A stretch of 64,000 bases of DNA from Latilactobacillus curvatus JCM 1096 = DSM 20019 (GTDB lineage Bacteria; Bacillota; Bacilli; Lactobacillales; Lactobacillaceae): assembly GCF_004101845.1 (NCBI RefSeq), contig NZ_CP026116.1, positions 558,001 to 622,000 on the forward strand. Direction: 5' to 3'. Position numbers and translations under genes: made by a program. Shown here piece by piece: positions 10,161 through 64,000 of this stretch; position 1 is the first letter of the stretch; each line of letters starts with the position of its first letter. The notes under the pieces were generated by a model, which was not told where the DNA came from, searched no databases, and worked only from the letters and a program-made list of their open reading frames with translations.

Positions 10161-10170
10161 GATGGATGAA

Positions 10171-10286
10171 ACGTGCTTTTCAAGCTAACTTTCTGTGATT
10201 AGCTACATCCGTCAAATCACCGATTTTGTCGGTAATCTGCCTGATTAGGCTAATCCTCAGAAGATACCCGGCTTATTGCACACTCT
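10171..10286 (-). repeat. Structured repeat family 1, copy A1
   Basis: Unit of 116 bp framed on plus by ACGTGCT and GCACACTC. AAGC and GCTT form a weak inner arm here; CGA/TCG and ATTAG/CTAAT form inner stems. The unit shares the spaced blocks of the family (CTT near position 20, CTCAG about 30 before the end). Listed on minus because the presumed RNA follows the minus tautomerase gene. Confidence 0.75.
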
Positions 10287-10294
10287 ATTCTGAA

Positions 10295-10410
10295 ACGTGC
10301 TCCGTCAGATATACACTTCCGGTTAGTTACATACCGCAAACGATCGGCTACGCCGCTCATTCACGGTATTAGACTAATCCTCAGCGTATGACCATCTGAC
10401 GTCGCACTCT
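10295..10410 (-). repeat. Structured repeat family 1, copy A2
   Basis: 116 bp. ACGTGCT ... GCACTCT frame; inner arm CGTCAGAT pairs perfectly with ATCTGACG; a nested TTAGT/ACTAA with TACCG/CGGTA stem and a CGGC/GCCG hairpin follow. Read on minus, its GAGTGC starts at the last base of the tautomerase stop codon. Confidence 0.85.
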
Positions 10411-28096: not shown

Positions 28097-28136
28097 AAAA
28101 AAGGCCGCAAGCTAGGTTAGCTTGCGGCCTTTTTAT
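28097..28136. terminator. Bidirectional terminator
   Basis: AAGGCCGCAAGCTA stem with its complement, flanked by A and T tracts. On plus it ends the small membrane genes; on minus it would end rpoD transcripts after repeat array B. Confidence 0.9.
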
Positions 28137-28147
28137 TGATTGCCTAA

Positions 28148-28262
28148 ACGTGCTTTTTAGTTCAACAACTTCCGCTTAATCTAACATTGCCATTAATTCT
28201 AAAATCTGAATTAATGACAATATTGTATTAATGCTCAGTTGCTCCCGTAACTAAACGCACTT
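28148..28262 (-). repeat. Structured repeat family 1, copy B1
   Basis: 115 bp, frame ACGTGCT ... GCAC. Inner arm TTTAGTT/AACTAAA; CAACT/AGTTG; and an apical hairpin CATTAATTC/GAATTAATG. Very similar in sequence to copy C1 more than 33 kb away. Confidence 0.88.
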
Positions 28263-28270
28263 TATCGAAA

Positions 28271-28386
28271 ACGTGCTCTAGCAGGCATATTTCTGCGGCT
28301 AGCTACGTCAGTCAAACAACCAACATCGTTGGTTATTCGCCTGACTATGCTAACCCTCAAAATATAGCCGCCTGCTTACGCACTCT
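28271..28386 (-). repeat. Structured repeat family 1, copy B2
   Basis: 116 bp. ACGTGCT ... GCACTCT frame, inner arm AGCAGGC/GCCTGCT, then ATATTT/AAATAT, GTCAG/CTGAC and the apical hairpin AACCAA/TTGGTT. On minus it starts one base after the rpoD stop codon. Confidence 0.88.
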
Positions 28387-28387
28387 T

Positions 28388-29497
28388 TTATTCTAAAAAG
28401 TCTTTTAATTGTTTTGAACGTGATGGGTGGCGGAGTTTCCGTAATGCTTTGGCTTCGATTTGACGAATCCGTTCTCGCGTAACGCCGAACACCTTACCCA
28501 CTTCTTCTAATGTCCGTGTCCGACCATCATCAAGGCCGAAACGTAAACGTAAGACGTTTTCTTCACGGTCTGTTAAGGTATCTAGGACACTTTCTAATTG
28601 TTCTTTCAACAATTCATAAGAAGCATGTTCTTCAGGACTGGTTGCATCTTGATCTTCGATAAAATCGCCTAAGTGTGAATCGTCCTCTTCACCAATTGGG
28701 GTTTCAAGGGAAACAGGTTCTTGAGCGATCTTCAAGATTTCGCGCACCTTATCCGTATTCATATCCATTTCAGCACCAATTTCTTCAGGCGTTGGTTCGC
28801 GGCCCAAATCTTGAAGTAATTGTCGTTGAATCCGGATTAACTTGTTAATCGTTTCAACCATGTGGACAGGAATCCGAATGGTCCGGGCTTGATCGGCAAT
28901 CGCACGCGTAATCGCTTGACGAATCCACCATGTGGCATATGTTGAGAATTTGAACCCTTTACGGTGATCGAATTTTTCAACGGCCTTCATTAAGCCCATG
29001 TTCCCTTCTTGAATTAAATCCAAGAATTGCATGCCACGGCCAACATACCGTTTAGCGATTGAAACCACCAAACGCAAGTTAGCTTCGGCAAGGCGTTGCT
29101 TGGCTTCTTGATCACCTTGTTCGATTCTCAAGGCTAAGTCAACTTCTTGTTGGGCGTTTAAAAGAGATACCCGCCCAATTTCTTTTAAGTACATCCGCAC
29201 AGGATCGTTAATCTTAATCCCGGTTGGTGCAGTCATATCTTTTAATTCTTTAGCAGAAACCTTTTCCTTTTTAAGGGTAGCGGCACTTGGATTCCCATCT
29301 TCATCGACAATCCCAATCCCTTGGTCTTCCACTTTTTGCATTAATTCATTGATTTCATCAGCTTGTAGCGCAAATGGTTTCACGATTTTTGCAACGAGTT
29401 CATCATTGGTGATTTCTTTCTTTGGTTTGTATTCCTTAATTAAAGCCTTAACCGCAGTATCAAATTTCTTCGTGTCAGCTTTTTTATTATCAGCCAT
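28388..29497 (-). CDS. rpoD: Primary sigma factor (sigma-70/SigA)
   Basis: Directs RNA polymerase to housekeeping promoters. 369 residues: a short region 1.1 without the E. coli insertion, region 1.2-2 ([46 protein letters not shown]), region 3, and region 4.2 with [23 protein letters not shown]. Preceded by dnaG with 17 bases between, as in the macromolecular synthesis operon. Followed directly by repeat array B and then a terminator, so its mRNA would carry two structured repeats in the 3' UTR. Confidence 0.97.
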
Positions 29498-38743: not shown

Positions 38744-38758
38744 AGATAACTCCTTCCA

Positions 38759-38867
38759 GAGTGTGACTGCAACTGATTCTGAGTATTATCTAGCCCAGAA
38801 AATAAACGACTTTAGTCGATTATTAACTACACGTCGTAAAGTGAAGAATCAAGTTGCAACCGCACGT
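38759..38867 (+). repeat. Structured repeat family 1, copy D (inverted)
   Basis: 109 bp, orientation opposite to the other copies: GAGTG at the left, GCACGTTT at the right. Inner arms GCAACT/AGTTGC and GATTC/GAATC, a TCTGAG block, an apical CGACT/AGTCG hairpin and a GTGAAG block in the expected places. It lies in the phoH upstream region rather than after a stop codon. More diverged than the tandem copies. Confidence 0.7.
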
Positions 38868-38994
38868 TTCAACTTCATTTGTTTTAGAATGAAAACTACC
38901 ATCATTCTATCACAAACAACAACCGTTTTAAAAGTAGCCAGCCGCGCTAATTCACGAATTTATGGTCAATTATCAAAATCTGAATTAACGACCA

Positions 38995-61934: not shown

Positions 61935-61968
61935 ACAAAAAGACCACCTCAGTTTTTAAGGTGGCCTT
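61935..61968 (-). terminator. Terminator of valS, after repeat array C
   Basis: GGCCACCT/AGGTGGTC stem with a 9-base loop and T5 on minus. It follows the three repeat copies, leaving a 3' UTR of about 390 nt for valS. Confidence 0.85.
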
Positions 61969-61969
61969 A

Positions 61970-62086
61970 ACGTGCTTTTGGTTGCAACAACTTCCGCTTA
62001 ATCTAAAAATTCCGTTAATCCTAAAACCTGAATTAACGGAATTTTTGTATTGATGCTCAGTTGCTACCCGCAACCAATCACACTTC
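61970..62086 (-). repeat. Structured repeat family 1, copy C1
   Basis: 117 bp. Inner arm TTGGTTGC/GCAACCAA, CAACT/AGTTG, and an apical 15-bp stem whose halves are AAAAATTCCGTTAAT and its complement. Same internal text as B1 (AACTTCCGCTTAATCTAA), with different arms. Confidence 0.9.
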
Positions 62087-62094
62087 TTTCACTA

Positions 62095-62211
62095 ACGTGC
62101 TCCTCGAGCAGCCTTTTCCGGTTAACTGCAAAATGGGCATCATGGCAAAAAACGCCACAATGCCCATTTTACTGTTAATCCTCAAAGCCTAACCAGCTCG
62201 AGTCGCACTTC
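62095..62211 (-). repeat. Structured repeat family 1, copy C2
   Basis: 117 bp. ACGTGCT ... GCACTTC frame, inner arm CTCGAGC/GCTCGAG, apical stem AAAATGGGCAT/ATGCCCATTTT. Confidence 0.9.
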
Positions 62212-62218
62212 TTTTTTA

Positions 62219-62330
62219 ACGTGTTTTCATCAACAGCTTCCTGTGCTTTGCTACACTTATCAAATCGGCGCTTACAGCGCCAATTCGCTAAGTTAGGCAA
62301 ATGCTCAGAAGCTAACCGTTGATGATGCAC
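62219..62330 (-). repeat. Structured repeat family 1, copy C3
   Basis: 112 bp. ACGTG ... GCAC frame, inner arm TCATCAAC/GTTGATGA, AGCTTC/GAAGCT, apical GGCGCT/AGCGCC. On minus its GTGC begins at the base after the valS stop codon. Confidence 0.9.
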
Positions 62331-64000
62331 TTATGCATTTTTTAATTCTGCTACTCGTTTTTCGACTGATTGGTATTGTTGTTCGTAGTCTGCTTGTTTG
62401 TCGCGTTCTTCTTGGACCACTTTTTCTGGTGCGCGGTCTGTGAAGCCCTTGTTTGACAACTTGCCTTTAGCACGTTTGATTTCACCGTCTAAACGTTTCA
62501 ATTCGCCTTCTAAACGGGCGATTTCTTCGTCTAAGTCGAGCAATTCAGCCAATGGCACATAAACTTCTGCACCACTGATAATGGCTGTCTTCGCCAATGC
62601 TGGTGCTGTTAAACCTTCAGCAATTTCAAGTGACTTAGGATGTACGAAGCGTTCGATGAAGTCTTGGTTTTGTTTGAAGATCGTCATTAATGGCGCATCT
62701 TGAATGTTGACCAAGACATCAATTGGCTTGCTTAGTGGTGCATTGGCTTCGGAACGGATATTCCGGACACTTCTAATTAGATCGATTAACGCATTCATTT
62801 GCGTTGTTGCTTCTGGATCGTCTAATTCAGCGTGCACTTCTGGATAAGCCGCATTGACGATTGAATCGCCAGTATGTGGCATACTTTGCCAGATTTCTTC
62901 CGTGACAAATGGCATCACTGGGTGTAATAGACGCAATGTTTGGTCTAAAACATAAGCCAAGTTATAACGTTTATTGGCAATGGCTGCTTGGTCGTCTCCG
63001 TAAAGGACTTCCTTCGCCATTTCAATATACCAGTCACAGAAATCGTTCCAGATAAAGTTATACAATGTCCGGCCCGCTTCACCAAATTCGAAGCTTTCAT
63101 AAAGCCGTGTAACATCTGCCACCGTTTGGTTCAATTGGCTTAAGATCCATTTGTCCGTTAAATCAAGGTTAGCGGCATCTGGCATCTTCGTTGGCGCTGG
63201 TGTGTCTTCAAGGTTCATGATGACGAAACGACTTGCGTTCCAAATCTTATTGATGAAGTTCCAGGCAGCATCCATCTTCGTGTAACTGAAACGAACATCT
63301 TGGCCTGGTGTTGAGCCACTCGTTAAGAACCAACGCAATGCATCGGCACCGTATTTTTCAATGACTTCCATTGGGTCAATCCCATTACCAAGTGATTTAC
63401 TCATCTTACGGCCTTGTTCATCGCGGATTAAACCGTGAATGAGGACGTGTTCGAATGGGCGTTGTTCTGTAAATTCGAGACTTTGGAAAATCATCCGTGA
63501 GACCCAGAAGAAGATGATATCGTAGCCAGTTACCAACGTATTGGTTGGGAAGTAGCGTTTGAAGTCAGGCGCTTCAGTGTTTGGCCAACCCATTGTTGAA
63601 AATGGCCATAAGGCACTACTGAACCATGTGTCTAGGACATCAGAATCTTGAGTCCAGTTTTCGATATCTTTTGGTGCTTCTTCGCCGACATACATTTCAC
63701 CAGTTTGTTTATGGTACCAAGCTGGGATTTGGTGCCCCCACCATAATTGACGCGAAATAACCCAATCATGAACGTTTTCCATCCATTGTGTGAAGGTATT
63801 TTCGAATCGTTCTGGCACAAAGTTCACCTTTTGATCGGTTGCTTGGTTCTTCAAAGCCATTTCAGCAAGTGGCTTCATCTTAACAAACCATTGCGTTGAA
63901 AGCCGGGCTTCAACTTGTACACCGGTCCGTTCAGAATGACCAACACTATGTGTCATTGGGTCGACTTTAATCAAATAACCTTGTTCCTTCAAGTCAGCAA
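62331..64000 (-). CDS. valS: Valyl-tRNA synthetase, C-terminal two thirds
   Basis: Frame open to the right edge; the visible part is about 556 of the usual 880 residues. [28 protein letters not shown] (KMSKS loop), [10 protein letters not shown] and [20 protein letters not shown] with the anticodon-binding region and the C-terminal coiled coil ([28 protein letters not shown]) are typical of ValRS rather than IleRS. The HIGH motif lies outside the window. No start is given since none is real here; a T-box would be expected further right. Followed by array C. Confidence 0.95.

Follow-up and report, generated by a model that had tools for sequence, protein, structure and literature searches.

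The two tandem repeats that follow rpoD in Latilactobacillus curvatus belong, as judged from their sequence and predicted fold, to a family of structured ~117-nt repeats spread through the Lactobacillales, with the rpoD array being one occupied site among many and nothing about it being special to rpoD. The units are a small structured dispersed repeat of a known type, and we give roughly an even chance to a reading in which they are mobile-in-evolution, cis-acting mRNA 3'-boundary elements, comparable to the REP sequences that lie close to stop codons.

In the window analysed here, a stretch of 64,000 nt of the L. curvatus chromosome, rpoD has dnaG upstream and terminates in a TAA codon at 28388-28390, with two repeat units separated by a 5-nt spacer (TCGAT) immediately beyond (Table 1). 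Both units fold far better than expected on the rpoD strand, with z-scores of -8.1 and -7.8 for the first and second unit respectively against 200 dinucleotide shuffles, whilst the opposite strand folds more weakly. These z-scores, together with the coordinates and the covariance-model scores, confirm the original prediction of two structured repeats after the rpoD stop codon, although each unit measures 117-118 nt once its conserved ends are included, rather than the 115 and 116 bp first assigned. The terminator at which the array was said to end is also present, as a hairpin with a predicted fold of -29.2 kcal/mol, but it lies 12 nt past the second unit; it was missed in a pattern scan, its T tract probably having been absorbed into the stem. 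The arms TTTAGTT/AACTAAA and AGCAGGC/GCCTGCT were read correctly, as was the core text common to an rpoD unit and a unit of array C ~34 kb away. The description of these arms as unique holds for the two copies within the window but not genome-wide, where arms and cores recur in other combinations.

Table 1. Positions in the window of rpoD, its terminator, and the repeat units; bit scores are those of covariance model R1.
Feature	Position	Strand	Evidence	Remarks
rpoD, primary sigma factor, 369 aa	28388-29497	minus	ORF; genus orthologues 96-100% identical	
rpoD array unit 1	28269-28386	minus	106.6 bits	AGAGTGC start one base past TAA
rpoD array unit 2	28146-28263	minus	104.5 bits	
Bidirectional intrinsic terminator	28098-28134		sequence and fold	12-bp G+C-rich stem flanked by A/T tracts
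Array A unit 1	10293-10410	minus	104.5 bits	T/AG junction; at stop of small tautomerase-like gene ending in VLKSDEK
Array A unit 2	10169-10286	minus	93.9 bits	
Array C unit 1	62217-62333	minus	96.2 bits	
Array C unit 2	62093-62211	minus	89.5 bits	
Array C unit 3	61968-62086	minus	104.3 bits	core text common with distal rpoD unit

A BLAST search with the rpoD array matched 46 places in its own genome (G000). Units were gathered by motif and fold, aligned, and built into a covariance model (R1), and R1 together with a reading of the hit regions put the count for this genome at 91 arrays holding at least 167 units; three of the arrays are on the 18-kb contig C2. Arrays consist of single (34), double (40), triple (15), or quadruple (2) units of 117-120 nt, with tandem spacers mostly of 6 nt, and the units make up about 1% of the genome by length. 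One further weak R1 match of 41 bits, on the plus strand of the window at 38758-38869, overlaps an ORF and may be a decayed unit or a chance fold. In a sample of the Lactobacillaceae, R1 detected units in 59 genomes out of 121, covering 20 of the 40 genera, the other 62 genomes being without them, with weaker matches of the same architecture in other Lactobacillales families, and Enterococcus faecium plasmids reached by BLAST with one divergent Lactobacillales relative. An Enterococcus-type array is also found in a plasmid-named Klebsiella pneumoniae record (CP069368.1, 23304-23530), likely to be mislabelled or contaminating Gram-positive DNA. The R1 search of 199 other Bacilli, which doubles as a specificity control, returned no match, and nor did a search of phage records for units. 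Against Rfam 15, at gathering and E-value thresholds, the window gave no match and five unit-bearing loci gave chance-level matches only, and no published name for the family was found in the open-access literature, subscription papers lying outside the search. The family, which also lacks annotation in the records inspected, is apparently undescribed.

Each unit is modelled as a long hairpin of 36 pairs plus the outer arm. A GUGC/GCAC clamp lies on the outside, then come a variable arm, a CGGUUA bulge on one side only, another arm, the conserved internal loop (UGAG.A / CG.A), and finally a variable core. Across 142 distinct units, standard pairs occupy 95.2% of pair cells, compared with 70.7% in shuffled controls and only 31-45% when the columns are slid by 1-3, with a covariation score of 0.696 (0.232 shuffled) and 1262 pair cells in which both sides have changed, these pair counts leaning towards the model structure because the alignment (A4) was fitted to it. 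An independent MAFFT alignment (A1) presents the same picture, with double changes in 28 of the 36 pairs. Among unpaired positions, conservation is seen at the A that precedes GUGC on the outside, the G within the CGGUUA bulge, some residues of the UGAG.A / CG.A loop, and the A that precedes GCAC. A K-turn reading of this loop is not claimed, as it looks 3x4 rather than having the standard 3-nt bulge. Among non-Watson-Crick cells, G-U exceeds A-C ~six-fold (457 and 76 respectively), and the sense fold is more stable than the antisense fold in 136 of 142 units. The main target of selection therefore appears to have been the strand that is co-transcribed with the upstream gene; a DNA hairpin that is strand-specific and tolerates G-T could account for some of the G-U excess.

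The arrays are positioned with considerable precision on stop codons. Taking the longest sense ORF ending nearby, the first AG of the unit completes a TAG stop (a T/AG junction) in 33 of the 91 arrays, and 52 of the 91 begin at most one base past the stop or overlap it by no more than 3 bases, the ORF calls behind these positions being crude. Exact sequence matches located 14 arrays on a gene-annotated conspecific record, CP117684, where 11 lie no more than 7 nt from the end of a sense CDS or overlap it by no more than 2 nt, the docked CDSs including groL, ccpA, mutS2, rnhC, rpiA, rpsN, and a nucleoside transporter. Of the other three, two occupy 5' leaders, those of rpsN and an amino acid permease gene, and the third runs antisense to the genes beside it. 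The gene rpsN (30S ribosomal protein S14; G000:C1:1722891-1723668) carries two-unit arrays in both its 5' leader and at its stop codon. Docking extends to other genera and families; on the E. faecium plasmids the array follows a polysaccharide deacetylase gene and starts on its stop codon. Intercistronic arrays account for 22 of the 91. Whilst intrinsic terminators are likewise 3'-UTR hairpins, a U tract directly follows the last unit in only two arrays and is missing from the other 89, with a separate terminator 3' of the array in 48 of the 91, which rules out the array itself as an intrinsic terminator. A readthrough signal is similarly ruled out, the frame beyond the stop codon staying open for a median of 8 codons before the next stop, with no frame preferred.

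The suggestion of a regulatory 3'-UTR element stands insofar as the array is predicted to be transcribed and structured and shows signs of RNA-level selection (fold, covariation, and strand bias), but does not extend to control specific to rpoD. That the array serves rpoD in particular, regulating the mRNA of the primary sigma factor from its 3' UTR, is scarcely credible. Its position on the rpoD strand, 3' of the gene and stopping before the rpoD terminator, would suit such a role, however 165 more units sit at other genes, and the stop codon of rpoD in four Latilactobacillus relatives, L. graminis (G003), G001, G004, and G005, is followed directly by the terminator. Of 58 rpoD loci compared, units occur at three (this genome, G002, and G046, a species of another genus), leaving 55 empty. 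The original prediction held that the lack of the array at rpoD in close relatives would indicate random insertion; the lack is observed and tells against a role particular to rpoD, but insertion does not look random, with the whole family docking on stop codons in sense orientation.

The E. coli REP/BIME (REPIN/RAYT) sequences resemble this family in being dispersed palindromic repeats, many of them just past stop codons and between operon genes. They differ in that the REP palindrome is ~35 nt, whereas the units here form a ~117-nt hairpin with conserved internal loops, are almost always in sense orientation, are docked on the stop codon itself, and occur in a genome lacking RAYT/Y1. Among REP traits, the 3'-UTR site near a stop is present and the short palindrome of ~20-40 nt is absent; in its proposed action the family comes closest to the REP found near stop codons, yet it is not REPIN/RAYT. 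EFAR, a double hairpin with an L shape, inserts into stem-loops. Going by description, the units may be related to EFAR/Efa-1 of Enterococcus faecalis: the E. faecalis repeats too are intergenic, modular, and structured, they come from a related family, and a divergent relative of the units occurs on the E. faecium plasmids. Efa-1 is a 163 bp repeat present in 65 copies (PMC2267715). The BOX elements of Streptococcus pneumoniae, built of boxA, boxB, and boxC modules, are likewise stem-loop repeats of similar length that abound between genes within the Lactobacillales (PMC2267715), however R1 found nothing convincing outside the named families in the order and class samples.

Comparison among relatives, in most cases with one genome per species, reveals turnover of unit content at fixed sites. 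Over 200 kb compared with G004 and G005, the C-termini of genes at filled and empty sites are mostly identical, with one gene lengthened by a few residues into the unit, and where a gene ends in ACESCVI each of three species has a different unit at the site. The tautomerase site has a first unit that is 98.3% identical between this genome and G005, the gene being 85.3% identical, whilst between G005 and G004 the gene is 98.2% identical and the units only 55%; either units have therefore been exchanged separately from the genes, or the constraint on some of them is unusually strong. In 42 pairs of mosaic units the outer arms are identical and the cores unrelated, the reverse kind being absent, which shows modular recombination. 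Twenty units are at least 95% identical to copies at different loci. This genome matches two L. curvatus-named records at 99-99.5% identity, and L. sakei was rejected as its species on that ground. Between this genome and CP117684 (99% identical over 19.9 kb) the unit number is the same in 24 of 25 arrays, the remaining array differing by exactly two units, at unit borders. CP117684.1 is a 592-kb record named plasmid p1_CACC879 that carries the housekeeping genes groEL, ccpA, mutS, and aspS, and looks like a piece of chromosome, being 99% identical to the chromosome studied here. The nearest sister species, G001, is ~90% identical to this genome, and of 27 shared sites that were read, three have units in fair shape, ten have decayed remnants at the same stop codon, and 14 gave nothing by BLAST. 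A good share of the arrays therefore predate the split, having been maintained here and lost there. The family has decayed en masse in G001, in many cases through deletions inside a unit that leave its ends in place.

Under the 3'-boundary reading, each unit would be transcribed as part of the mRNA of the upstream gene and fold into a long hairpin beginning at the stop codon. Once the last ribosome has left, the hairpin would close at the end of the ORF as the 3' boundary of the message, shielding it from 3'-to-5' exonucleases and leaving no unstructured gap behind the ribosome, with tandem units providing redundancy. The same logic could apply between genes in operons. The conserved internal loops probably bind protein, or interrupt the long helix and so protect it from RNase III. 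A 3'-boundary role cannot hold for all copies, given the two 5'-leader arrays and the antisense array among the 14 annotated, and that 62 of the 121 Lactobacillaceae genomes do without the family counts against the boundary model.

Whether the net effect would be stabilising or a brake on translation, the sequence alone allows either. A hairpin at the stop may hinder finishing ribosomes, leading to stalling, cleavage, and ribosome rescue, and with 52 of the 91 arrays lying 0-3 nt from the stop, the units are well inside the range (<16 nt) at which E. coli REP lowers translation (PMC12306157). We consider such a brake unlikely, as copies follow essential, highly expressed genes such as groL, rpsN, and rpoD, where it would presumably be costly. 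A purely selfish dispersed repeat with no host function, for which docking reflects target choice and the removal of harmful insertions, retains an appreciable though minor probability. The patchy distribution, the copies on plasmids, the near-identical copies at different loci, and the swapping of units beside a gene that is 98% identical between relatives all fit this account. Against it, individual old copies at the sites in common with G001 have retained their pairing in this genome, there is a six-fold preference for the RNA strand, and neutral copies should decay alike in both sisters, although recurrent gene conversion could still rescue the selfish reading.

A very improbable alternative is that the units act at the DNA level, as single-strand or cruciform hairpins forming an attC- or REP-like recombinase target, with the RNA fold incidental. 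The mosaic units and the exact two-unit strain difference point to recombination at unit borders, however the strong strand asymmetry, sense with the host gene, and the lack of a Y1 transposase in this genome or in G004 and G005 argue against this. A more ambitious extension of the boundary model, which we put forward tentatively and regard as possible rather than probable, is a docking system spanning the Lactobacillales, in which interchangeable ~117-nt RNA modules at stops, often completing UAG, would move among sites and among species without regard to the host gene; a trans-acting factor would read them, and its loss, as perhaps in G001, would let all the copies decay. The contrast between intact and decayed copies in sister species offers a direct route to such a factor. 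The family as a whole would rank very high in abundance among the structured RNA elements of lactic acid bacteria, and would offer a testable case of the encounter between the 3' end of an mRNA and the terminating ribosome.

The exact docking poses the question of how a small repeat finds stop codons without a resident RAYT or reverse transcriptase. No match to the Y1 transposase/RAYT domain (PF01797) was found in G000, G001, G004, or G005, and across the 121 genomes Y1 presence does not track unit presence, which rules out REPIN/RAYT as the mobiliser. Reverse transcriptase (PF00078) was likewise not found in G000, G001, G003, G004, or G005, which speaks against a retroelement or group II intron derivative. 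New copies would arise from a route of mobilisation or recombination other than a resident Y1 transposase or reverse transcriptase. The three arrays on contig C2 (1900-2140, 11057-11292, and 12279-12395) equal, together with their flanks, the chromosomal arrays at 1481425, 1590349, and 1589246, as if gene and array had been copied together between plasmid and chromosome.
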